45,630 nucleotides of DNA from the NCBI GenBank assembly GCA_949295035.1, contig CASFJO010000093.1, forward strand, positions 1-45,630. The letters run 5' to 3'. The position numbers and the translations under genes are program-made. Numbering within the stretch: position 1 is the first letter of the stretch; every line of letters starts with the position of its first letter. This DNA comes from an uncultured Gemmiger sp. (GTDB lineage: Bacteria; Bacillota; Clostridia; Oscillospirales; Ruminococcaceae). The notes beneath the pieces were generated by a model that saw only the letters and a program-made list of their open reading frames with translations, made no database searches and was not told the DNA's origin. Shown here piece by piece: positions 2,658-38,751 of the stretch.

Positions 2658-3233
2658 ATGGCGGACAAATATTTGATTCTGGACAGCCACGGAAACGCGG
2701 TGGCGCACGGCGTTTCGGATTACCGCCCGCAAGGCGGCGAGTGGCGCATGGTCATCGACGACGGCGATCTGGAAGAGATCACAAAGCATACGGTGATCTG
2801 CCTGGTGGGGGATTCCGATGCGGTGCCCGCCATGGAGGGAAAGATCATCCGCCGGGAGGGCAATGCCGTCGTGCTGACGCCGGTGCGGCCGCTGAATCAG
2901 TCTGTGCGGGCCAACCTGCGCATCCTGACACGGTTTTCCAGCTATATCTACCCCCGCTCAGGGCGGTGGAAAGGCCGGGAGGCGATCGTCAGCCGCGATT
3001 TGAGCTGCGGTGGTCTGGCGTTTTTGTGTGCCCGCAAACTGGAGATCGGCGAGCAGGTACAGGTGGTCATCCCGATCACAGCCCAGCCGCTGTTGCTGGA
3101 CATGAAAATTCTGCGCTGTTCTCAGGAGGCGGACGGGCAATTCCTGTATGCGGCGCAGTTCCTGGACATGGTGCGGGAAGAAGAGAGTATGGTGCGGGAA
3201 GCGGTGTTCAGTCAGCAGCTTCGGCGCGGCTGA
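2658..3233 (+). CDS. PilZ-domain protein, probable c-di-GMP receptor
   Basis: The protein has 191 residues. The ATG at 2658 has AGGAG 10 bases upstream; the GTG at 2649 is only one base from it and is unlikely. The C-terminal half is a PilZ domain: the RxxxR element is R84-A-N-L-R88 and the second element is D114-L-S-C-G-G119, fitting the (D/N)xSxxG rule, so the ligand-binding residues are present. Residues 1-80 may be a YcgR-N-like beta domain, as in YcgR/YpfA flagellar brakes. Lying beside flagellar genes, in a window with two other c-di-GMP genes, it is a good candidate motility brake. That role is inferred. Confidence 0.8.
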   Translation: MADKYLILDSHGNAVAHGVSDYRPQGGEWRMVIDDGDLEEITKHTVICLVGDSDAVPAMEGKIIRREGNAVVLTPVRPLNQSVRANLRILTRFSSYIYPRSGRWKGREAIVSRDLSCGGLAFLCARKLEIGEQVQVVIPITAQPLLLDMKILRCSQEADGQFLYAAQFLDMVREEESMVREAVFSQQLRRG

Positions 3234-3651: not shown

Positions 3652-4035
3652 ATGGATTTTTTATCAAGTAACACAGCGCTGATGCTCCAGCGCTCCATGG
3701 ATTATCTGTGGACCAAACAAAGCTGTATCCTGGATAACATCGCCAACGCGGAGACGCCCGGCTACAAAACCAAATACGCAACGTTTGAAGAGGCGCTGCA
3801 GCAGGCAGTGCAGTCCGCTGACAAAAAGAACGGTACGGCCAGCGGCATGCGTACTGCCATCGAACAGGCGCCGATCGCGGTGCAACAGGCGGAGGAGAGT
3901 ACACGCCTGGATGATAACGGCGTGAATATTACCGAACAGATGGTGGAACTTTCCCGCAACGGCTATCAGATGCAATATGTGCTGGACGCGATCAACAGCG
4001 ATCTCTCCCTGATGCTCGCCGCGATCAAAGGGTAA
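3652..4035 (+). CDS. flgB: FlgB, flagellar proximal rod protein
   Basis: The product has 127 residues, a normal FlgB length. It carries the N-terminal rod/hook signature (ILDNIANAETPGYK, about residues 24-37) and a C-terminal heptad helix (EQMVELSRNGYQMQYVL). FlgB forms part of the proximal rod that joins the MS ring to the drive shaft. AAAGGAT lies about 9 bases before the ATG. It is the first gene of the long motility cluster and is followed 13 bases later by flgC. Confidence 0.96.
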   Translation: MDFLSSNTALMLQRSMDYLWTKQSCILDNIANAETPGYKTKYATFEEALQQAVQSADKKNGTASGMRTAIEQAPIAVQQAEESTRLDDNGVNITEQMVELSRNGYQMQYVLDAINSDLSLMLAAIKG

Positions 4036-27202: not shown

Positions 27203-28150
27203 ATGGCGCAAGAAGGAAAAAGCGGGATCTTGCTGGAGACTGGCACCAACGAGATCGAGATCATGGAGTTTACCATTGACGGTAATCTCTATGGGATCAA
27301 TGTGGCCAAGGTACGCGAGATCATGATGTCGGCGGAAGTTAAACCGATGCCGCATACGCACCCGGCAGTAGAAGGGATCTTCAAGCCCCGGGACACGGTC
27401 ATCACCGTTGTGGATCTGCCCAAGTATCTGACCGGCCAGGAGCACGAGCATAAGGAAAAAGACCTGTTCATCGTGACCAACTTCAATCAGATGCACGTGG
27501 CGTTCCGGGTGGACAGCGTGGTGGTGATCAGCCGCATCTCCTGGAGAGATATCCAAAAACCGGACAGTACCATTTCCGGCGGCGCCGACGGTGTGGCCAC
27601 CGGCATTGCTCAGTGCGGCGACGACCTGGTGAGCATTCTCGACTTTGAACGGATCGTGGCGGAAATCGCCCCCGAGACCAGCATCCAGCTCAGCGAAGTG
27701 GAAGCGCTGGGCAAGCGCCAGCGCAACGCCAGCCCGATCTGGGTAGCGGAGGACTCGGTGCTGCTGTCCCGGATGATCCGCGAATCCCTGGAAAAGGCCG
27801 GGTACACCAATCTGCGGATGTTCCCCAACGGCGCCGAACTGTGGGATGCGCTGCAGGCCTGCGCCGAAGAAGGAGACGTGGCCGACAAGGTGGCCCTCAT
27901 CATCACCGACCTGGAGATGCCGCAGATGGATGGGCATCACCTGACCAAATTGATCAAGAGCACACGAGACCTGCAGAAGATCCCGGTGGTGATCTTCTCC
28001 TCGCTGATCACCGAGGAGATGCGCCGTAAAGGGCGGGAGGTCGGTGCAGATGAACAGCTCAGCAAACCGGAGATCGCACACTTGATCGGCATTCTGGATG
28101 AACTGTTGAGCCGCAGCCGCGCAAATCAGAAAGGGGGAACAGGCCTGTGA
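27203..28150 (+). CDS. cheV: CheV, CheW-receiver coupling protein
   Basis: The product has 315 residues. A CheW-like domain spans about residues 15-165 (VAKVREIMM, GIFKPRDTVITVVDLPKYL) and a receiver domain about 175-300, with the phosphorylated D236 in ALIITDLEMPQMDG and the conserved Lys in LSKPE. CheV couples receptors to CheA and adapts by phosphorylation. No separate cheW lies in the window, so CheV could be a main coupler here. It overlaps the next gene by 4 bases. Confidence 0.93.
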   Translation: MAQEGKSGILLETGTNEIEIMEFTIDGNLYGINVAKVREIMMSAEVKPMPHTHPAVEGIFKPRDTVITVVDLPKYLTGQEHEHKEKDLFIVTNFNQMHVAFRVDSVVVISRISWRDIQKPDSTISGGADGVATGIAQCGDDLVSILDFERIVAEIAPETSIQLSEVEALGKRQRNASPIWVAEDSVLLSRMIRESLEKAGYTNLRMFPNGAELWDALQACAEEGDVADKVALIITDLEMPQMDGHHLTKLIKSTRDLQKIPVVIFSSLITEEMRRKGREVGADEQLSKPEIAHLIGILDELLSRSRANQKGGTGL

Positions 28151-29433
28151 GCAGCAAATATATCGTACGAGTACCCATCAAAGATCGGGACAACCATATC
28201 ATCGGCTATGAAATTCAGTATTATGGGGAGAATCACGCTTTCGGCGGAGACGATAAGACTCCCGGTTCGGCGAACGATTTTGCCGCCGCGGATACCATTT
28301 ATAACTTCCTGACACTGAATACCGATAAGATCCTGCGGGGCACGCTGAACTTCATGACCTTTACCACGACCCTGCTGATGAAAAAGTCGCCCCGCCTGTT
28401 CGATAAGGATGAGCTGGTCATCCAGATCGACGACAGCGTGATCATCCATCCGCTGGCCATGCACATGATCCAGCAGTATGCCCGGGAAGGGTATAAGATC
28501 GCGGTCAACGAGTTTCAGTTTGCACCGCGCTATCTGGCTATGCTGGACAGCATCGACTATATCAAGCTGAACTTCCAGACGATGCCGGAACTGACCCTGA
28601 AAAATATCATTGAGATCGCCCACAGCATGAACAAGAAATGTGTGGCCGTGGGCGTGGACAGTGAGCAGTTGTACCAGCAGGCCCTGAAATTGAATGTGGA
28701 CGCGATGGAAGGCACCGTCGTGGCCGAGAAGATGACCCAGAAGACTCACAACAGCGGGTATCTGCAGAGCAATTTCTTCCGCCTGATGGTGGCGGTGATC
28801 CAGGACGAGCCGGATGTGGACGAGATCGAGAAGATCATCTCGGTGGACGCTACCCTGACCTACGGCCTGCTCCGCATTGCCAATTCCCGGTATTTCTCGC
28901 TGCGCAGCAAGGTCACCAATGTACGTCAGGCCATCATGACCATCGGCCTGAATGAACTCAAGCAGTGGGTCTATCTGCTCAGCGCCAGCAACGCGGAGAA
29001 CCAGATGGACGAAGGCGCCGAAGAATTTTTGCGTCTTTCCCTTATGCGGGCGAACTTCTGCAGCAGCCTGATGAATTATGCCAAGGATATGCCCATCACC
29101 AAGTCGGATGCGTATCTGATGGGTATGTTCTCGACCTTGAATTATCTGATTGACGCGCCGCTTGAGGAAATCTTGCAGCAGATCCTGATTTGCAAGGAGG
29201 TCAAGGACGCGCTGCTGTATCACAAGGGCCGGTGCGGGATACTCTATGATCTGGCTTTGTGCTATGAGCGTGCGGATTGGTCGCAGATCGACAGCCTGGC
29301 CGGTGAACTCAATATCCAGACGAACCTGCTCACCAGCCTGTATTTCAACTGCATGGAAAAGGTGAATCAGATCTGGAATGAGATCACCCAAAGCATCGCC
29401 AGCGTGGAAGAAAAGAAAAAAGAGGAAGCGTAA
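28147..29433 (+). CDS. YuxH-type protein: degenerate EAL domain plus HDOD domain
   Basis: The product has 428 residues and starts with GTG at 28147, after AAAGGGGGAA, overlapping the cheV stop. The first 205 residues have an EAL fold, but the signature E-A-L is replaced (IGYEIQYYG), and the metal-binding residues are largely missing, so phosphodiesterase activity is unlikely. Residues 205-400 form an HDOD domain (ISVDATLTYGLLRIANSRYF). Proteins of this build are known as regulators in motility and c-di-GMP signalling (the YuxH/CdgJ group). The translational overlap with CheV suggests a joint role; this is inference. Confidence 0.85.
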   Translation: MSSKYIVRVPIKDRDNHIIGYEIQYYGENHAFGGDDKTPGSANDFAAADTIYNFLTLNTDKILRGTLNFMTFTTTLLMKKSPRLFDKDELVIQIDDSVIIHPLAMHMIQQYAREGYKIAVNEFQFAPRYLAMLDSIDYIKLNFQTMPELTLKNIIEIAHSMNKKCVAVGVDSEQLYQQALKLNVDAMEGTVVAEKMTQKTHNSGYLQSNFFRLMVAVIQDEPDVDEIEKIISVDATLTYGLLRIANSRYFSLRSKVTNVRQAIMTIGLNELKQWVYLLSASNAENQMDEGAEEFLRLSLMRANFCSSLMNYAKDMPITKSDAYLMGMFSTLNYLIDAPLEEILQQILICKEVKDALLYHKGRCGILYDLALCYERADWSQIDSLAGELNIQTNLLTSLYFNCMEKVNQIWNEITQSIASVEEKKKEEA

Positions 29434-29494: not shown

Positions 29495-32400
29495 ATGAAG
29501 TTGGAAAACGAGGGCCCTGCGCAGCAACCGCAGAAAACTTCCAATATCCTGGGAAGCACCGGCAATGACTATCTGTTTTTGTGGGACCTGCGCAGCGGCG
29601 CCATCCATATTTCCGGCAACATTCAAAAGCAGTATCCGATCCAGCTGGATGACGATAATACCTGTACCATTGAGGACTGGTATCGGATTGTATACGCAAA
29701 GGATTTGCCCGCGCTGCGCCATAGCCTGGAACAATTGTGCCAGGGCACTTTGTCGCAGTACGCGCAGGAATATCGGGTCATAGACCGAAAGGGCAACCGG
29801 GTTTGGGTCGCCTGCCGGGGCGAGTGCCGCTTGGATAAGCAAGGGGTGCCCATATCCCTGATTGGCCGCATTTCCGACACGCGTCTGAAAGGTCGGGTAG
29901 ATCTGCTGACCGGTGCTTTTAACAGCACCGAACTGGCCGAGGATCTGGATCGGCTGCTCCGGGAGCGGAAACAGGGCTTTCTGCTGTTGGTTGGCGTGGA
30001 CAACCTGAAACATGTGAACCTGCGGCACGGCCGGGAATATGGCAACCGTATCCTGCAAAAAACCGTGGATGTTCTGGAAGAGCTGGTCGGCCCGGGCAAC
30101 CGCATCTATCGGATAAACGGCGACTGTTTTGCCGTAAACCTGTCGGAAAAAGACCGGGAAGCGGTCGAAGAACTGTACCGTGCGCTGCGGGATCAGATGG
30201 CGGATTCCTGTACCATTTCGGCGGGCGCTGTCGCATACCACGAACATCCCTCGGCAGATGCCGGGGCGTTGTACCAGTATGCGGAGGATACTCTGGATAA
30301 GGCCAAGCGGCAAGGCAAAAACAAGCTGGCCTTTTTCTCGCCGGAAGATTACGCGGTGCGCCTGTCCACCATTGAACTGCAGGAGGAGCTGGAACGCAGC
30401 GTTCAGAACGAGTTTGAAGGCTTCTCGCTGCGGTATCAGCCGCAGCTGCGGGCGGGGAATTATGATCTGTTCGGTGCCGAAGCACTGCTGCGCTATCATT
30501 CACCACGACACGGCAATGTGGAACCGTCCAAATTCATCCCGGTGCTGGAACAGTCGGGCATGATCCGCCCGGTGGGGCTGTGGATCCTGCGCAAGGCCCT
30601 GGATCAGTGCCGGCAATGGCGTGCCGCGGCGCCGCAGCTGCATATCAGCGTCAACATGTCCTATGTACAGCTGGATCAGGAGGATATCGCCCAACAGGTG
30701 CTGGATCTGCTTGAAGAAAGCGGCCTTCCCGGCGACGCCCTGATCCTGGAAGTGACCGAGAGCATGCAGCTGCAGGATTATCTGCGCTTTAATAAACTGT
30801 TCTACCGGTGGAAACAAGCCGGGATCGAAATTTCAGTGGACGATTTCGGTACCGGCTATTCCAGTTTGGGATATCTGAAAAATCTGGACATTGAGGAGAT
30901 CAAGATCGATCGCTGCTTTGTGCGGGGCATCCAGCACAGCGCCTATAACTATCGGCTGCTGAGCAATATGCTGGAGTTGGCCAGATCCTCCCAGATCCGG
31001 GTCTGCTGTGAAGGGGTGGAGACGCAGGACGAACTGGAAGCTCTGGAAGAGTTGAAGCCCGACTCTTTGCAGGGCTTTTTGTTCAGCCGTCCGCTGACCA
31101 GCACCGAGTTTGAAAACACCTATATACGGCAGGAAACGCCGGAGTATGCGGGCTATGTGGCCCTGAAGCAGGAATTGCGCCGGATCTGGCACGGTGGCCG
31201 GGGGGCTGACCGGGAGGGGATCCCTCCGGAAGAAGCGATGGGTAATATCGTAGGGGCGCTGGATGAAGTCGTGTATGTGAGCGATCTTGTCACCTACGAT
31301 CTGTACTATCTGAATCCGGCGGGCCGGCGGCTTACCGGCATCTGTGACTACAAGGGACTGAAATGCTATAAAGTGCTGCAAGGGCGGGACGAACCCTGCG
31401 ATTTCTGCACCAACAGCCGATTGCGCCGGGACAGTTTTTACGTCTGGGAGTTGAACAACCAAAAATTTGGCCGTCGATTTATCCTGAAGGATAAACTGAT
31501 CGCCTGGCAGGGCAAAATGGCCCGCTTGGAGCTGGCCAAGGATGTCACGGAACAGGAGATCGTAAGCCAGTCCGCCCAGACAAAGCTGGATTTTTCTCAG
31601 GCGGTGTGCGCCTGTACCCGGGCCTTGCTTGAGGAACCGGACAGGGCGTCGGCCACCCGGCAGATGCTGGCGGCGGCAGCCGGATTTTACCGGTCCGATC
31701 GGGTCTGTTTGTTTGAATCGGTCCCGGGCGGCGGATGGCGGATCGCCGGCGAGTGGTGCCGGGATGGCGTATCTTCCGGGGCGGACCCTCTGTCCGCCTG
31801 TCTGCTCACGTTGCCGGAACGCTGGATGATGGCTTTTCGTCAGAATGTGTCGGTGGTGATCGACGATGCGAAACGCCTCAAAGAGAGTGACCCCGGCGAG
31901 TGGAAACTTCTGCAGGCGATGCGGGCAGAGCGTCTGCTGGCTGTTCCCGTTTGCAGAGAGAGGGAACCGGTCGGCTTTTTGGCGGTGAACGCGCCCGGCC
32001 GCTGTGAGATGGACGGCGCCATGCCGCGCGCGCTTGCGCTGTTTTTATCTGCCCGCATGGCGGAGGAAACGCAGGAGCTGCCACACGAACCGCTGGAACA
32101 GCAGTATCGAAACGTGCTGCGCGATGTGAACCTCGGGCTGTGGTATATCCGTATCGACCCGGCGGGCAACCGGCATGAAATGTTCACCGACGGCACGATG
32201 CGCCGGATCATGGGGCTCGAAAAGCCGGTCTCCCCGCAGGAATGCTATGAATACTGGTATGGACGCATCAAGGATGGGTACTATCAGTATGTGGATCTGT
32301 CGATGGACGCGATGATCCGCTCCGGCCAGGTGATGCAGCTGGAATATCCCTGGCAGCATCCCACGCTGGGCGAGATCATGGTGCGCTGCACCGGCGTGCG

Positions 32401-33727
32401 CACACAGGACGCGGACGGAATGATCTGCCTGGAGGGGTGCCATCGCGGCATCTCCGATCTGGAACGCCCCAAGTATTTGCCGGACACCCCCACCGGCGAG
32501 GTGTTTGAGTTCAACGAACGGCGCGGCAGCATCTATTTCCATACCGGCCGCACGCTGCTGGACGGGGCCGACAGGAGCGAGGAGAACTTCCCGGCCTGCT
32601 GGTTGAAAAACGAGATCGTGCATCCCCATTTCGCCAAACGGTTTGCCGCGATCTTCCATCAGGTGCAGCAGGCGCCGGATGTGGAAGGTGAAGAATTTAT
32701 GCTGCGCGGTAAGAGCGGCGGATACGAATGGTTCAAGCTGCGCACAAGACACCTTGGTACCAGCGTAAAAGACCGAGATACCATCCTGGTGCTGCTGGAT
32801 GCCGCCGATCGGGAGCGGGTGCTGCAGCTGGAGATTTTGCGGCTGCAGGATTTTTATCAGGCGAGCCTGAGCGATTCCATCGCCTATGCGGAGGTGGACC
32901 TGGAGAGCGGACAACTCAAATCCGCCGGCGGTTTGTGGGAAGGGTACGAGCGTTCGTATGACCGGGACTCCGAAAATCTGTTCCAGTTTATGATGCGCCA
33001 GGCAAAGGACAACGTGCAGACCAACCCCGCCATTCAAACGTTGTGCGAGATGAAAAGCTGGAAAGATATCATGGCAAAGGGCGAACCGGTCCGGCGCCTG
33101 CGCTATCAGCGAAAGATCAACGATGAGTGGCGCTGGGTGGAATTGGTGGCTCATTATTTCCGCGAACAGTTCACCGAAAATATGTTTGCCTTGCTGTATC
33201 TGAAGGATATTGACCGGCAGGTGCGCAAAGAGCAGGCACAGCAGGAGGCGGCCAACCGGGACCCGCTGACCAGCGTTTATAACCGGAATGCCTTCGAGAT
33301 GCTGGTGCGGGAATACATGGAGGATCCGGCCGGCGAAAAACAGGGGGCCTTGATCCTGATCGACATCGACAATTTCAAGGAGGTCAACGATCGGCTGGGC
33401 CATCTGGAAGGCGACGCGGCGCTGCGGTATGTGGCCAATCTTCTCAAATCCACCTTCCGTCAGCGGGATGTGATAGGCCGCCTGGGCGGCGATGAGTTTT
33501 TTGTCTTTTTGCAGGGACCCATCACCGAAAAGACATTGCATGACCGGATGGAACAGCTGTATACGGCTATGGATGAATATCCACGCACCCCGATCAGCTG
33601 CAGCGCCGGTATCGCCAAACTCAAAAGCGAAGGGTTCTCCTACAACGCAAGTCTGTACAAGGCGGATATGGCGCTGTATGAGAGCAAAAAGCGCGGAAAG
33701 CGCCACTATACGTTCGCGCAGGAATAA
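29495..33727 (+). CDS. Multidomain c-di-GMP enzyme: PAS, GGDEF-like, EAL, PAS/GAF sensors, GGDEF
   Basis: The product has 1410 residues and no membrane segment. Domains by reading: PAS (about 20-130), degenerate GGDEF (137-290; N208-G-D-C-F212 replaces GGDEF), EAL (300-545; E329-A-L, EVTESM, DDFGTGYSSLGYL and EIKIDRCFV are intact), a PAS-like domain with a Cys cluster (C624, C635, C638), a GAF-like domain (705-855), further PAS-like domains (865-1240) and a complete C-terminal GGDEF (R-L-G1331-G-D-E-F1335). So it can probably both break down and make c-di-GMP. Cytosolic location follows from the lack of membrane helices. It ends the motility cluster, 61 bases after the EAL-HDOD gene. Boundaries are approximate. 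Confidence 0.88.
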   Translation: MKLENEGPAQQPQKTSNILGSTGNDYLFLWDLRSGAIHISGNIQKQYPIQLDDDNTCTIEDWYRIVYAKDLPALRHSLEQLCQGTLSQYAQEYRVIDRKGNRVWVACRGECRLDKQGVPISLIGRISDTRLKGRVDLLTGAFNSTELAEDLDRLLRERKQGFLLLVGVDNLKHVNLRHGREYGNRILQKTVDVLEELVGPGNRIYRINGDCFAVNLSEKDREAVEELYRALRDQMADSCTISAGAVAYHEHPSADAGALYQYAEDTLDKAKRQGKNKLAFFSPEDYAVRLSTIELQEELERSVQNEFEGFSLRYQPQLRAGNYDLFGAEALLRYHSPRHGNVEPSKFIPVLEQSGMIRPVGLWILRKALDQCRQWRAAAPQLHISVNMSYVQLDQEDIAQQVLDLLEESGLPGDALILEVTESMQLQDYLRFNKLFYRWKQAGIEISVDDFGTGYSSLGYLKNLDIEEIKIDRCFVRGIQHSAYNYRLLSNMLELARSSQIRVCCEGVETQDELEALEELKPDSLQGFLFSRPLTSTEFENTYIRQETPEYAGYVALKQELRRIWHGGRGADREGIPPEEAMGNIVGALDEVVYVSDLVTYDLYYLNPAGRRLTGICDYKGLKCYKVLQGRDEPCDFCTNSRLRRDSFYVWELNNQKFGRRFILKDKLIAWQGKMARLELAKDVTEQEIVSQSAQTKLDFSQAVCACTRALLEEPDRASATRQMLAAAAGFYRSDRVCLFESVPGGGWRIAGEWCRDGVSSGADPLSACLLTLPERWMMAFRQNVSVVIDDAKRLKESDPGEWKLLQAMRAERLLAVPVCREREPVGFLAVNAPGRCEMDGAMPRALALFLSARMAEETQELPHEPLEQQYRNVLRDVNLGLWYIRIDPAGNRHEMFTDGTMRRIMGLEKPVSPQECYEYWYGRIKDGYYQYVDLSMDAMIRSGQVMQLEYPWQHPTLGEIMVRCTGVRTQDADGMICLEGCHRGISDLERPKYLPDTPTGEVFEFNERRGSIYFHTGRTLLDGADRSEENFPACWLKNEIVHPHFAKRFAAIFHQVQQAPDVEGEEFMLRGKSGGYEWFKLRTRHLGTSVKDRDTILVLLDAADRERVLQLEILRLQDFYQASLSDSIAYAEVDLESGQLKSAGGLWEGYERSYDRDSENLFQFMMRQAKDNVQTNPAIQTLCEMKSWKDIMAKGEPVRRLRYQRKINDEWRWVELVAHYFREQFTENMFALLYLKDIDRQVRKEQAQQEAANRDPLTSVYNRNAFEMLVREYMEDPAGEKQGALILIDIDNFKEVNDRLGHLEGDAALRYVANLLKSTFRQRDVIGRLGGDEFFVFLQGPITEKTLHDRMEQLYTAMDEYPRTPISCSAGIAKLKSEGFSYNASLYKADMALYESKKRGKRHYTFAQE

Positions 33728-33740
33728 AAGCCTGCATCAA

Positions 33741-33781
33741 AAAACGCCGGGAACCGTGTGTACAGCGGTTCCCGGCGTTTT
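33741..33781. terminator. Bidirectional terminator between the c-di-GMP gene and hemerythrin
   Basis: AAAACGCCGGGAACCG (33741-33756) pairs perfectly with CGGTTCCCGGCGTTTT (33766-33781), a 16-bp stem with a 9-base loop. On the plus strand the tail is TTTTGCG; on the minus strand the stem is followed by a run of six T, so it works best for hemerythrin. It serves both convergent genes. Confidence 0.92.
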
Positions 33782-33798: not shown

Positions 33799-34197
33799 TC
33801 AATGCTCCTGCACATAGCGGGCCATGCGCTTGTCTTCCGTGCGGATGTGGGTGATCAAGGTGGCCACGGCGCGGTTCAGATCCCCCAGAGTCTTTACGGA
33901 AGGGCCTTCCTGGATCAGGACCTGCGCGGTCGCCGAAAGCTGGTTACGGTACCCGGTGTGGAACTGTTTGTGGGCGCCATAATTCGGGTAGTGCGCCTGG
34001 ACCTGAAGGCGTTCCTCGTCCTGAAAATGCCGAACCACATAATCGTTCAAAAAGGTCACGGTACTTTGGATCTGCTCGCGCCCCTTGCCGACCGAGCAAG
34101 CATCCATCAATTGGTTTACCGCGTCAAAAAGATGGCGGTGTTCTGAATCGACCAAAGAGTTTCCCGTCAGAAGGTCTGCGGTGAACTCGTATTTCAT
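33799..34197 (-). CDS. Bacteriohemerythrin, di-iron oxygen-binding protein
   Basis: The product has 132 residues, the size of single-domain bacterial hemerythrins. All expected iron ligands are visible: H20 (VDSEHRHLF), H57 and E61 (HFQDEE), H76 and H80 (HKQFH), H117 and D122 (HIRTED). It can bind oxygen reversibly and may sense, store or remove it; in an anaerobe a protective or sensing role is plausible. The ATG at 34197 (complement) is preceded by AAAGGAGAT. It is the only minus-strand gene between cheA and the window end and has its own promoter. Confidence 0.93.
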   Translation of the reverse strand: MKYEFTADLLTGNSLVDSEHRHLFDAVNQLMDACSVGKGREQIQSTVTFLNDYVVRHFQDEERLQVQAHYPNYGAHKQFHTGYRNQLSATAQVLIQEGPSVKTLGDLNRAVATLITHIRTEDKRMARYVQEH

Positions 34198-34506: not shown

Positions 34507-36486
34507 ATGCCAAAAAAGCAGGATTACGGCAATGAGAGCATCACCAGCCTGAAGGGCGCGGACCGGGTACGCAAACGCCCTGCGGTCATCTTTGGCTCCG
34601 ACGGGGTGGAAGGGTGCGCCCACTCGATCTTTGAGATCCTCTCCAACTCCATCGATGAGGCCCGGGAAGGTTTTGGCGCCAGGATCACCCTGACCCGCTT
34701 CAAGGATGGCAGCATCCAGGTGGAAGATATGGGCCGGGGCATTCCGGTGGACTACAACGCCAAGGAGGATCGCTACAACTGGGAGTTGGTCTTTTGTGAG
34801 ATGTACGCCGGCGGCAAGTATACCGCGGGCGAGGACAACTACGAATATTCCCTGGGCCTGAATGGCCTGGGACTGTGCGCCACCCAGTACGCCAGTGCCT
34901 GGATGACCGCCGATATCTACCGGGACGGTTTTCACTATCACCTGGATTTCCGCAAAGGCGAAAATGTGGGCGGCCTGAAAAAGGAGCCGCTCACCCGCAA
35001 GCGCACCGGTTCGGTGATCCGCTGGATGCCGGATACCGAGGTGTTCACCGATATCGCCGTGCCCACCGAGTATTTTCTGGACACCATGAAACGGCAGGCG
35101 GTGGTCAATGCCGGGCTGACCCTGGTGTTTGTGGATGAGATGGGCGGCGAGCGCACCACCACCGAGTTTTGCTATGAAAAAGGCATCGAGGATTATGTGG
35201 AGGAGATCGCCGGGCTGGACGCCATGACCCCGGTGGTCTACTGTGAGTCCTCAGCCACCGGCCGGGACCGGGAGGACCAGCCCGACTACAAGGTGCGGAT
35301 GACCGCGGCCTTCTGCTTTTCCAATAAGGTGCAGCTGCTGGAATACTACCACAATTCCAGCTTTCTGGAGCACGGCGGCAGCCCGGACCGGGCGGTGCGC
35401 ACCGCTTTCGTGAACCAGATCGACACATTCCTGAAGAACAAGGGCATGTACAAAAAAGGGGAGAGCAAGATCACCTTCGCGGACGTGCAGGACTGCCTGG
35501 TGTATGTGTCCAGCAGCTTCTCCACCCGCACCAGCTACGAGAACCAGACCAAAAAGGCTATCACCAATAAATTCGTGGCCCAGGCCATGACCGAGTTTCT
35601 CAAGCACAATCTGGAGGTCTATTTCCTGGAAAAACCGGACGAGGCCCAGAAGATCTGCCAGCAGGTGCTGATCAACAAGCAGAGCCGCGAACATGCGGAA
35701 AAGACCCGTCAGTCGATCAAAAAGACCATGTCCAGCCAGATCGACATTGCCAACCGGGTACAGAAGTTTGTGGACTGCCGTACACGAGACGCCTCCCGCC
35801 GGGAACTCTACATCGTGGAGGGCGATTCGGCCATGGGCGCCGTCAAGACCAGCCGGGACTCGGAATACCAGGCCATCATGCCGGTGCGGGGCAAGATCCT
35901 GAACTGCCTCAAGGCCGACTACGACAAGATCTTCAAGTCCGACGTGATCACCGACCTCATTAAGGTGCTGGGCTGCGGTGTGGAACTGGGCGGCAAAAGC
36001 AAGCGGGATCTGGCCACCTTCGATCTGGCCAATCTACGCTGGAACAAGGTGGTCATCTGCACCGACGCGGACGTGGACGGCTACCAGATCCGAACCTTGA
36101 TCCTGACCATGCTCTACCGGCTGGTGCCCACCCTGATCCAGCAGGGATACGTGTATATTGCCGAGAGCCCGCTGTATGAGATCAACACCAAAACCAAGAC
36201 CTACTTTGCCTACACCGAACCAGAGAAGGCCTCCATCCTGAGCCGTCTGGGCGAAAAGGAAAAGCCCGTCATCCAGCGGTCCAAAGGTCTGGGCGAGAAC
36301 GACCCGGAAATGATGTGGCTCACCACCATGAATCCGGAGAGCCGCCGGCTGATCAAGGTGATGCCCGAGGACGCGGAGGATACCGCCCGGGTCTTTGATT
36401 TGCTGCTGGGTGACAACCTGACCGGCCGCAAGGAACACATCGCCCTGCACGGGGCGGAATATCTGGACGATCTGGATCTGTCCTGA
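34507..36486 (+). CDS. parE: ParE-like type IIA topoisomerase ATPase subunit (divergent)
   Basis: The product has 659 residues. With ParC it would form topoisomerase IV, which unlinks daughter chromosomes. ATPase motifs are LSNSIDEA, GRGIP and GLNGLGLCATQYAS; the last replaces the usual GLHGVG form. The QTK loop is ENQTKKAITNK. The metal-binding TOPRIM motifs are E438-G-D-S-A-M-G444 (the usual form is EGDSAGG) and T519-D-A-D-V-D-G525. The end of the TOPRIM region, QRSKGLGENDPEMMWLTTM, is typical. These changes mark a divergent branch seen in clostridia. GyrB cannot be fully excluded, but gyrase is usually elsewhere. Confidence 0.85.
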   Translation: MPKKQDYGNESITSLKGADRVRKRPAVIFGSDGVEGCAHSIFEILSNSIDEAREGFGARITLTRFKDGSIQVEDMGRGIPVDYNAKEDRYNWELVFCEMYAGGKYTAGEDNYEYSLGLNGLGLCATQYASAWMTADIYRDGFHYHLDFRKGENVGGLKKEPLTRKRTGSVIRWMPDTEVFTDIAVPTEYFLDTMKRQAVVNAGLTLVFVDEMGGERTTTEFCYEKGIEDYVEEIAGLDAMTPVVYCESSATGRDREDQPDYKVRMTAAFCFSNKVQLLEYYHNSSFLEHGGSPDRAVRTAFVNQIDTFLKNKGMYKKGESKITFADVQDCLVYVSSSFSTRTSYENQTKKAITNKFVAQAMTEFLKHNLEVYFLEKPDEAQKICQQVLINKQSREHAEKTRQSIKKTMSSQIDIANRVQKFVDCRTRDASRRELYIVEGDSAMGAVKTSRDSEYQAIMPVRGKILNCLKADYDKIFKSDVITDLIKVLGCGVELGGKSKRDLATFDLANLRWNKVVICTDADVDGYQIRTLILTMLYRLVPTLIQQGYVYIAESPLYEINTKTKTYFAYTEPEKASILSRLGEKEKPVIQRSKGLGENDPEMMWLTTMNPESRRLIKVMPEDAEDTARVFDLLLGDNLTGRKEHIALHGAEYLDDLDLS

Positions 36487-36507
36487 TCGCGGGGAAAGGA
36501 GAAAGCA

Positions 36508-38751
36508 ATGGCAAAAAAGAACGCAAAGCGCGCGGCGCCGGTGCGGCCTCAGCTGGGCGACCATGTGGAGATCCCGGGCGCCGGCGTGGTGCTGGAGACC
36601 CCCATCACCCAGACGCTGGAGACCAACTATATGCCCTACGCCATGAGCGTGATCGTCTCCCGGGCGCTGCCGGAGATCGACGGCTTCAAGCCTGCCCACC
36701 GCAAACTGCTCTATACCATGTACGAGATGGGGCTGCTCAAGGGCAACCGCACCAAGAGCGCCAACATTGTGGGCAGTACCATGCACCTGAACCCCCACGG
36801 CGACGCCGCCATCTATGAAACGATGGTGCGCATGGGCCGGGGCAACGAGAGCCTTCTGGTGCCTTTTGTGGATTCCAAGGGCAACTTCGGCAAGGCATAC
36901 AGCCGGGATATGGCCTACGCCGCCAGCCGGTACACCGAGGCCCGGCTGGAGCCGGTGTGCGAGGAGCTGTTCCGGGATATCGACAAGGATACGGTGGACT
37001 TTGTGCCCAACTACGACGGTACCACCACCGAACCCACCCTGCTTCCGGTGACCTTTCCCACCATCCTGGCCAACAATACCCTGGGCATTGCGGTGGGTAT
37101 GGCCTCCAATATATGTTCCTTCAACCTGGCGGAACTCTGTCAGACCACCATCGCCCTGATGAAAGACCCCGGTCATGATCTGCTGTCTACCCTGCCCGCG
37201 CCGGATTTCGTGGGCGGCGGTGAAATTTTGTACAACGAAGCAGAACTTCGCAAGATTTATGAAACCGGCCGCGGCAGCGTACGGGTGCGGGCGGAATACC
37301 GGTTTGAAAAAGACGGCAATATGCTCGAGATCACCCATATTCCTCCCACCACCACGGTGGAGGCGATTATGGACAAGATCGCGGAACTGGTCAAGGCGGG
37401 CAAGATACGCGAGATCAGCGATATGCGGGACGAGACCGACCTGCAGGGGCTGAAGCTGACCATAGACCTCAAGCGCGGCCAGGACCCGGACAAGGTCATG
37501 CAGAAGCTGTACAAACTCACCCCGCTGGAGGACAGCTTTGCCTGCAACTTCAACATTCTGGTGGGCGGTCAGCCCCGGGTGATGGGGGTCGCGGAGATCC
37601 TGAACGAGTGGGCGGCATTCCGGGCCGAATGCGTGCGCCGGCGCACCTTCCACGATCTGCAGGGCAAGCAGAAACGTTTGCACCTGCTCAAGGGCCTGGA
37701 AGCCATCCTGCTGGACATCGACAAGGCCATCCGCATCGTGCGGGAGACCGAGGAGGAGGCCGAGGTGGTGCCCAACCTGATGATCGGGTTCGGCATCGAC
37801 CAGGTCCAGGCCGAGTATGTGGCCGAGATCAAGCTGCGCCATCTGAACCGGGAATATATCCTCAAGCGCACCGAGGAGATCGCCGACCTGGAGGCGGAGA
37901 TCGCCCGCCTGAAGGAGATCCTGGACTCGCCGGCCAAGATCCGCCGCATCATTATGGACGAACTGGCGGCTGTGGCCAAGAAGTATGGCGGACCCCGCCG
38001 CTGCCGGATCGTCTACGACCTGCCCGACGAGGAAGAGGACCCTGGCGAGGACGCCATGCCGGACTACCCGGTCACGGTCTTTTTTACCCGGGAGGGATAC
38101 TTCAAAAAGATCACTCCCCAGTCGCTGCGGATGAGCGGCGAACAGAAACTCAAAGAGGGGGATCGGATCATCACCCAGGTGGAGACCCGCAACAACGTCT
38201 GGCTGCTCTTTTTTACCAGCCGGTGCCAGGTGTACAAATGCCGCGCCGGGGATTTTGCCGACGGCAAGGCCAGCCAGATGGGCGAATATGTGCCCGCCGC
38301 GCTGGGAATGGAGCCGGATGAGACGCCGGTATTCATGGCGCTGACCGAGGAGTACAAGGGATATATGCTCTTTTTCTTCGACAACGGCAAGTGCGCCCGG
38401 GTGCCGATGGAAAGTTACGCCACCAAGCAGAACCGCAAAAAACTGCTGAAGGCCTACAGCGACAAAGCGCCGCTGGTGCAGGCTATGCAGATCACGGAGG
38501 AGACCGAACTGGCCATCCAGACCAGCGCGGGCCGTCTGCTGCTGGTGGGCACCGCCCAGATCCCCGCCAAGCAGACCCGGGATACGGCGGGGGTGGCGGT
38601 GATCACCCTGAAAAAGAATCAGACCATCACCTCCATCCGGCCGGCGTCGGAGCTGGAACTGGCCAATCCCCACCGCTACCGGGTGCGCACCCTGCCCGCC
38701 GCCGGCGCGCTGCTGCGCGCCGAGGACACCGCCGAACAGATGTCCTTCTGA
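36508..38751 (+). CDS. parC: ParC-like type IIA topoisomerase cleavage subunit (divergent)
   Basis: The product has 747 residues. The catalytic Tyr142 lies in SRYTEARLEPV. The winged-helix region reads NPHGDAAIYETMVRMGR, with Ala100 where quinolone-susceptible enzymes have Ser (GyrA Ser83) and Glu104 at the GyrA Asp87 position, as in ParC. The C-terminal part (from about 500) has beta-propeller-like repeats but no clear QRRGGKG gyrase box, which supports ParC over GyrA. It starts 21 bases after parE behind AAAGGAG. No terminator follows directly; the valS promoter begins 24 bases on. Confidence 0.87.
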   Translation: MAKKNAKRAAPVRPQLGDHVEIPGAGVVLETPITQTLETNYMPYAMSVIVSRALPEIDGFKPAHRKLLYTMYEMGLLKGNRTKSANIVGSTMHLNPHGDAAIYETMVRMGRGNESLLVPFVDSKGNFGKAYSRDMAYAASRYTEARLEPVCEELFRDIDKDTVDFVPNYDGTTTEPTLLPVTFPTILANNTLGIAVGMASNICSFNLAELCQTTIALMKDPGHDLLSTLPAPDFVGGGEILYNEAELRKIYETGRGSVRVRAEYRFEKDGNMLEITHIPPTTTVEAIMDKIAELVKAGKIREISDMRDETDLQGLKLTIDLKRGQDPDKVMQKLYKLTPLEDSFACNFNILVGGQPRVMGVAEILNEWAAFRAECVRRRTFHDLQGKQKRLHLLKGLEAILLDIDKAIRIVRETEEEAEVVPNLMIGFGIDQVQAEYVAEIKLRHLNREYILKRTEEIADLEAEIARLKEILDSPAKIRRIIMDELAAVAKKYGGPRRCRIVYDLPDEEEDPGEDAMPDYPVTVFFTREGYFKKITPQSLRMSGEQKLKEGDRIITQVETRNNVWLLFFTSRCQVYKCRAGDFADGKASQMGEYVPAALGMEPDETPVFMALTEEYKGYMLFFFDNGKCARVPMESYATKQNRKKLLKAYSDKAPLVQAMQITEETELAIQTSAGRLLLVGTAQIPAKQTRDTAGVAVITLKKNQTITSIRPASELELANPHRYRVRTLPAAGALLRAEDTAEQMSF

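Follow-up and report, generated by a model that had tools for sequence, protein, structure and literature searches.

The window analysed here, a stretch of 45,630 nucleotides of contig CASFJO010000093.1 from an uncultured Gemmiger species, a gut-type bacterium, carries at the end of a flagellar gene cluster the gene for a 1410-residue protein, P0001, which is probably a soluble two-enzyme protein of cyclic di-GMP (c-di-GMP) turnover that combines a DosP-like phosphodiesterase, as its core, with a sensor-driven cyclase. The first half (PAS, dead GGDEF, EAL) would be the DosP-like phosphodiesterase. A poorly conserved linker appears to connect this head to a cysteine-bearing PAS domain (Cys-PAS), a GAF domain, three PAS-like domains and a final GGDEF, a second half that seems to follow the plan of an ordinary diguanylate cyclase driven by sensors and would be subject to product inhibition at its I-site. 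We infer that phosphodiesterase activity would be the core function and the cyclase an add-on input, raising or buffering c-di-GMP when its own sensors fire; in this organism the PilZ protein of the cluster may read the net c-di-GMP level and set motility. What can be read from the sequence itself is the domain order and its conservation, the intact catalytic residues, the dead first GGDEF and, if the tree is accepted, the repeated loss of the cyclase half.

Domains and catalytic residues

A first-pass annotation had placed in a single open frame at 29495-33727 a cytosolic protein with the order PAS, degenerate GGDEF, EAL, PAS/GAF sensors and GGDEF, and Pfam together with family profiles bore out both the coordinates and this order (Table 1); it had missed the three PAS-like domains after the GAF domain and three invariant cysteines in the first PAS domain past the EAL. 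The limits of the nine domains were taken from profiles of nine aligned orthologues, P0001 among them. Pfam recognized EAL at residues 298-533 (E 2e-63), PAS_3 in two stretches, the better at 56-124, and GGDEF in two stretches, the better at 1253-1403 (whole-protein E 6e-55). GAF_2 reached E 8e-4 at residues 751-840, under the curated cut-off, and the GAF family profile matched part of the GAF region of adenylate cyclase 1ykd at E 1e-5. PAS_8 matched 8 of 21 Cys-PAS segments, that of P0001 not being among them; PAS_3 matched the PAS_A segment of P0001 at E 2e-4, under the cut-off, and PAS_B at E 0.048, and gave no match to PAS_C. Profile searches of the PDB with the Cys-PAS and the three other PAS-like segments reached E 0.099 at best, and that with PAS_B found one PAS chain, 2k7s, at E 0.25. 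An AlphaFold2 model of residues 555-1410 had a mean predicted local distance difference test score of 76 and a predicted template-modelling score (pTM) of 0.37; in it the succession of strands and helices in PAS_B and PAS_C resembles that of a PAS domain, and their identity as PAS domains is weakly supported. The invariant cysteines C624, C635 and C638 might, at a guess, form a metal or redox site.

No 19-residue Kyte-Doolittle window of P0001 exceeded 1.6 (maximum 1.14), and the absence of a membrane segment is consistent with the predicted soluble, cytosolic protein. Between the HDOD gene and the start of the P0001 gene lie 61 bases, and the ATG is preceded by AAGGA, a stretch resembling a ribosome-binding site. 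As the first-pass annotation had stated, about 700 residues separate the end of the EAL domain (540) from the start of the cyclase (1248). Each half taken alone has an ordinary order, sensor then enzyme, and because each enzyme has sensor domains of its own, control by separate signals is plausible.

Residue counts refer to 46 family cores, after removal of three identical copies, three pieces shorter than 350 residues and the loci from L157 on, which lie outside the family (labels with G denote genomes, those with L loci of relatives); the C-terminal GGDEF alignment has 25 rows, including one duplicate genome (n=24 without it) and one broken gene. Roles of the positions are those that we take to hold from RocR and PleD. 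The EAL fold of P0001 is recognized by profile (PF00563), and its metal-binding and catalytic residues E329, N387, E419, D449, D450, K470, E506 and Q526 are all present and conserved in 46 of 46 cores; around them, the alanine of the EAL motif is valine or cysteine in three proteins and E422 is glycine in one. The C-terminal GGDEF of P0001 holds its motif (1331-1335), D1290, N1298 and D1307, and thus the motif, metal-binding aspartate and guanine-contacting asparagine and aspartate of a cyclase, with RQRD at the I-site; the motif is intact in 25/25 rows and the RxxD of the I-site in 19/25, P0001 included. At the N-terminal GGDEF (NGDCF), by contrast, P0001 has glycine for the first metal-binding aspartate, cysteine for the catalytic glutamate and asparagine for the guanine-contacting aspartate, so that both metal-binding positions are lost while the guanine-contacting asparagine is retained. 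Across the cores the catalytic glutamate position is never glutamate (46/46) and the first metal-binding aspartate is glycine in 37/46; the guanine-contacting asparagine is kept in all 46, and the guanine-contacting aspartate is aspartate in 28, asparagine in 14 and serine in 4. On the strength of this residue conservation P0001 seems to have an active EAL, an active final GGDEF and a dead first GGDEF, in agreement with the first-pass annotation.

Conserved order and apparent loss of the cyclase half

Nineteen complete proteins, P0001 counted, hold the identical nine-domain order. Its recurrence in 18 others shows that it is no accident of assembly, and an assembly artefact was rejected. Mis-binning of the contig was likewise rejected: its ValS is 97% identical to those of G001 and G002, two genomes of the genus, and is the sole strong ValS match in its own genome. 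Among the other cores, which were collected by similarity and are not an even sample, L118 is cut by a contig end within the last GGDEF, L122 and L123 have no GAF domain, L114 and L156 have the GGDEF directly after the GAF domain, and 22 of the 46 have no C-terminal GGDEF (9 PgECFA, 4 PgECF, 2 PgEC, 1 PgE and 6 PgEA forms).

A search with the whole of P0001 gave a match in 150/197 genomes of the family, two of which (G142, G066) have another full-length one; with residues 561-1235 at E 1e-30 there were matches, mostly partial, in 28/396 family and 22/394 order genomes. A scan of named contigs with an eight-sequence alignment gave the best 80 of 515 relatives, among which the full-length ones, almost all metagenome bins, are labelled Pseudoflavonifractor, Flavonifractor, Intestinimonas, Gemmiger, Faecivivens, Oscillospiraceae, one Lachnospiraceae, Eubacteriales and Clostridia. 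The PAS_B profile at E 1e-6 matched 6/391 genomes of the class, P0001's own included, the other five weakly. Scans of genome contigs and viral contigs with P0001 as single query (six peptides as seeds) found no relative, and among the plasmid matches listed (at least 5000 records) none had a place covering 80% of P0001.

Ratios of non-synonymous to synonymous substitution rates (dN/dS) were obtained for six pairs of relatives from the 21 long forms, P0001 being in none, and were 0.04-0.31 in every domain with >100 aligned codons. The EAL (0.04-0.16) and the C-terminal GGDEF (0.11-0.31) are, by these values, under purifying selection in the six pairs.

The arrangement itself is uncommon, not unique. 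Among 26 genomes, own included, 14 had an EAL match, and 39 of the 45 EAL matches were >600 bases and counted as full-length. One GGDEF before the EAL was the commonest layout (22); nine had no GGDEF match in frame, four had two GGDEFs before the EAL, one had EAL then GGDEF, and three (P0001 and the 1071-residue types of G001 and G002) had GGDEF on both sides. The earlier claim that the layout departs from the common one thus holds.

How the cyclase half came to be absent from so many relatives was approached with an IQ-TREE of the PAS-GGDEF-EAL head and 15 outgroup cores. The family had a bootstrap of 100 and the cyclase-free forms were nested among cyclase-bearing ones, a recent fusion in the P0001 lineage therefore being rejected; a FastTree with midpoint rooting was similar. 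The PgECFA/PgECF group stood at 100, and L143 lay among other flagellar-linked members (nodes 99, 88). Given the tree, the cyclase half seems to have been lost at least four times (PgEA group, L143, L136, PgECFA/PgECF group), perhaps six times if L147 and L148 are counted as well. One loss is clean, judged by the tree: the protein of L143 (5890-7647), at the same flagellar locus, is PAS-GGDEF-EAL only and ends at the residue matching 564, in the linker. Since this linker (541-579) is the least conserved stretch of P0001 (5-24% identity to 8 orthologues) and L143 ends within it, P0001 may be read as a phosphodiesterase whose cyclase can be removed.

In the available DNA of the 22 loci tblastn found no leftover of a lost tail; its other matches there were the first GGDEF or other genes, in L143 the next gene. 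A separate GGDEF gene adjoins three of the six PgEA loci (L150, L151, L152), and at L153 the contig ends shortly past the gene. A stand-alone arrangement like the tail occurs in G012, where a 900-residue frame shows 29% identity to residues 1027-1409 and no EAL was found.

Known systems and rival explanations

P0001 is an unusual arrangement of well-known parts and not a new kind of system. Its head has the same order, PAS-GGDEF-EAL, as DosP of E. coli, which is among its three best NCBIfam matches, all phosphodiesterases, and whose structures align over residues 135-539; P0001 scores 288 bits against a cut-off of 857 for the DosP equivalog and, in contrast with DosP, has a whole cyclase half after the EAL. 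Foldseek with the tail model ranked first a bacteriophytochrome cyclase of Idiomarina (5llw, 6et7), which we take to have the order PAS-GAF-PHY-GGDEF, at 12-13% identity; the good fits were to single GGDEF domains. In G001 and G002, which belong to the same genus, the 1071-residue-type GGDEF-EAL-GGDEF proteins also have the EAL flanked by GGDEFs, but are 28-30% identical to P0001, and that of G001 (L124) has no match to the PAS, Cys-PAS and GAF models of the P0001 family. In the dual proteins RmcA, RbdA, MorA and MucR of Pseudomonas one GGDEF presumably directly precedes the EAL, whereas in P0001 the GGDEF before the EAL is apparently dead, and another that looks active follows the EAL at a distance of about 700 residues. 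These Pseudomonas proteins, like P0001, carry intact GGDEF and EAL domains on a single chain, and are described as bifunctional in vitro (MucR, MorA) or as phosphodiesterases whose activity is raised by guanosine triphosphate (GTP; RmcA, RbdA) (PMC10874727).

The first-pass annotation had left room for the architecture being already described. An EAL before a GGDEF is indeed known from an Azospirillum hybrid that, like P0001, has an N-terminal EAL and a conserved GGDEF in one protein (PMC5845226); the likeness is one of described domain order, and the available part of that report does not mention the nine-domain order. Neither a description of this order, in open-licence literature searches, nor the phrase GGDEF-EAL-GGDEF, in the open-licence literature examined, was found. 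A review covers trigger phosphodiesterases and the receptor function of inactive GGDEF or EAL domains (PMC5052742). Filp appears as a degenerate EAL-GGDEF receptor (PMC5932348; also in the reference list of PMC9371280).

It could be argued that P0001 is a net phosphodiesterase in which the C-terminal GGDEF mainly binds GTP or c-di-GMP and so tunes the EAL, for which RmcA and RbdA, as portrayed in PMC10874727, are a precedent. The absence of the cyclase half from 22/46 family proteins, all 46 with intact EAL, and the retention of the I-site in 19/25 rows fit this view. It should be emphasized, however, that some 700 residues and a variable linker lie between the EAL and this GGDEF, that the GGDEF is served by a sensor series of its own, and that its motif is kept in all 25 rows, including the six that lack RxxD; we regard this explanation as rather unlikely. 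The first-pass annotation had proposed that the degenerate GGDEF beside the EAL may be a GTP sensor, as in other such pairs; it would then activate the phosphodiesterase in the manner of Caulobacter CC3396. A dead GGDEF is indeed found in every core, with the guanine-contacting asparagine universally kept and the aspartate kept in 28. In P0001, however, the first metal-binding aspartate, the catalytic glutamate and the guanine-contacting aspartate are all replaced, and the last has become asparagine or serine in 18/46 cores, all seven flagellar-context members among them. The nucleotide-binding residues are thus not retained as a set, although the asparagine is, and the loss of the guanine-contacting aspartate from P0001 and the other flagellar-linked members speaks against GTP sensing, leaving the proposal unsupported and improbable. 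That P0001 is mainly a cyclase which, in its flagellar context, slows motility, with the EAL limiting its output, would suit the intact GGDEF with I-site and the large sensor series, but is hard to credit when the related L143 at the same locus retains the phosphodiesterase half only.

Several observations weigh against the favoured reading of P0001 as a phosphodiesterase with an added, working cyclase. The presence of both activities in one chain is predicted, from sequence, and RmcA and RbdA keep both domains yet show, by the available account in PMC10874727, no synthesis in vitro. The tail model has a pTM of only 0.37 and the top Foldseek superpositions were poor overall (template-modelling score 0.18-0.20), the matches therefore supporting single domains only; a DosP chain, moreover, ranks fifth for the same tail. 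Several nodes of the tree have low support (40-79), its outgroups do not form a monophyletic group, and the choice between loss and gain hinges on rooting, in a set of 46 proteins gathered by similarity. The early-branching L114 and L156 have a final GGDEF of only 60-68 bits by the family model (others 184-250), which perhaps has a different origin. With values above 1, several of the dS estimates are unreliable, and the GAF figure for L122/L123, based on 6 codons, was disregarded. Distances of the EAL and of the C-terminal GGDEF are correlated at r 0.80, but this is nothing special because those of the other domains also track the EAL (r 0.64-0.79). Finally, six of the nine genomes in which a member is full-length or cut by a contig end gave no FlhA match, and the proposed motility step would thus be particular to the P0001 branch at best.

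Flagellar surroundings and the c-di-GMP set

The scanned genes at 4049-29433 match flagellar and chemotaxis Pfam families, from which their names were assigned, and that at 3652-4032 matched none. They comprise rod and hook proteins, FliF, FliG, FliH, a FliI-type ATPase, FliJ, FliK, FlgD, MotA, MotB, FliM, FliY, a CheY-like receiver, FliO, FliP, FliR, FlhB, FlhA, CheC, CheD, CheV, the HDOD protein and a sigma-70-family factor labelled FliA by position. The strong hairpin at 33741-33781, past the P0001 gene, presumably closes the flagellar unit; it is not among the sites listed by a promoter and terminator pattern scan, the counts of which were near those of shuffles (3 vs 4.6, 10 vs 7.5). Across the whole window Rfam, applied with its gathering thresholds, detected neither a c-di-GMP riboswitch nor any other family. 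At the 5' side of the cluster the PilZ protein contains RANLR and DLSCGG, which resemble what we take to be the c-di-GMP motifs RxxxR and DxSxxG.

The earlier claim that the P0001 gene is the last of the flagellar cluster stands for this genome, and a family member after the HDOD gene at the cluster end recurs in six relatives (G221/L115, L125, L126, L127, L128 and, shortened, L143), 32 named loci (L125-L156) having been compared, five of them positive. The link nevertheless belongs to one branch. FlhA matched in three of those nine genomes whose member is full-length or cut by a contig end (own, G221 and G066, in the last on a different contig from the member) and, among 21 genomes examined, in both genomes of the GAF-less variant (G525, G593); in the three other genomes of the genus, one of them 75% complete, the search gave no match. 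Family members thus also occur in genomes in which FlhA was not detected, and an obligate flagellar gene was rejected. The whole-genome search missed the PilZ gene of the own genome, found by direct scan of the window, and its negatives, FlhA included, are therefore not certain. A Pseudoflavonifractor metagenome-assembled genome has two copies, L125 in a flagellar context and L130 with flanks that have no flagellar match.

To the right, the window matches G001 at 89% only from 34391 onwards and G002 likewise from 34405 (stretches compared), indicating that the flagellar block ends there and was gained here or lost in those genomes; at this border the flanking DNA resembles that of same-genus genomes without an FlhA match. 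P0001 is 59% identical to the member at L115, eight matched upstream genes being 81-95% identical to G221 proteins, and thus changes much faster than those genes. Convergent with the P0001 gene is one for a hemerythrin-like protein (33799-34197, minus strand; Pfam E 1e-11), a type also found between family member and neighbour in L127 and L143; an oxygen link is possible. A pair of type II topoisomerase subunits follows at 34507-38751, below every listed curated cut-off for gyrase and topoisomerase IV.

The c-di-GMP system found in the own genome (92% complete) is small: P0001, a 1161-residue protein, a GGDEF protein of 488 residues and the HDOD protein, in which the EAL motifs are missing. 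The 1161-residue protein has the order Cys-PAS, GAF, GGDEF, PAS, weak GGDEF without motif, EAL, and its gene (L048:2585-6067) is on another contig, beside that of the 488-residue protein. Another GGDEF-EAL gene lies past the family member in L115, L126, L127 and L143; it is of the 1161-residue type, directly after the member in L115 and L126 and past a hemerythrin gene in L127 and L143, and enzymes of opposite order thus stand side by side in these four relatives.

Table 1. Positions of the P0001 gene, its domains and associated features
Feature	Position	Strand	Basis
Gene for the 1410-residue, putative two-enzyme c-di-GMP protein P0001	29495..33727	+	single open frame
N-terminal PAS domain (residues 25-128), presumably the sensor for the phosphodiesterase half	29567..29878	+	Pfam PAS_3 56-124; limits from alignment
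Degenerate GGDEF (134-284; NGDCF at 208-212)	29894..30346	+	catalytic Glu position non-Glu in 46/46
EAL phosphodiesterase domain (296-540), catalytic residues present	30380..31114	+	Pfam E 2e-63; 46/46
Variable linker (541-579) joining the halves	31115..31231	+	5-24% identity to 8 orthologues; relative L143 stops within
Cys-PAS (580-692), invariant C624, C635, C638	31232..31570	+	Cys in 21/21 long forms; model
GAF domain (694-862)	31574..32080	+	weak Pfam; 1ykd GAF profile match; model
PAS_A (868-990)	32096..32464	+	PAS_3 in 19/21 segments
PAS_B (998-1108), PAS-like	32486..32818	+	weak PAS_3 in 3/21; predicted strand/helix order
PAS_C (1112-1242), PAS-like	32828..33220	+	weak PAS_3 in 3/21; predicted strand/helix order
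C-terminal GGDEF (1248-1406), motif and RxxD I-site intact	33236..33712	+	motif 25/25 rows; RxxD 19/25
Hairpin and short T run, presumed terminator of the flagellar unit	33741..33781	.	-32.2 kcal/mol, z -7.1
HDOD protein with partial EAL-like half, without EAL motifs; upstream neighbour	28147..29433	+	Pfam
PilZ-domain protein, presumed c-di-GMP reader of the flagellar cluster	2658..3233	+	E 2.4e-11; 85% identical in G221
1161-residue-type neighbours in relatives, mirrored order	L115:10669-13875, L126:10381-13608, L127:10781-13864, L143:8312-11413		

On c-di-GMP in the bacterial group of P0001 almost nothing was found in the open-licence literature. The commonest layout among the 39 full-length EAL matches puts one GGDEF before the EAL, whereas P0001 separates two active-looking enzymes, each with sensors of its own, and natural relatives without the cyclase half occur; the balance between synthesis and breakdown in one chain is therefore testable by simple truncations. 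A tentative extension is that the family provides a push-pull c-di-GMP switch, a constant phosphodiesterase combined with a removable, separately sensed cyclase that might respond to redox state or metal through the three cysteines. If this were true, a two-way switch would be turned into a one-way eraser whenever evolution cuts at or after one linker.

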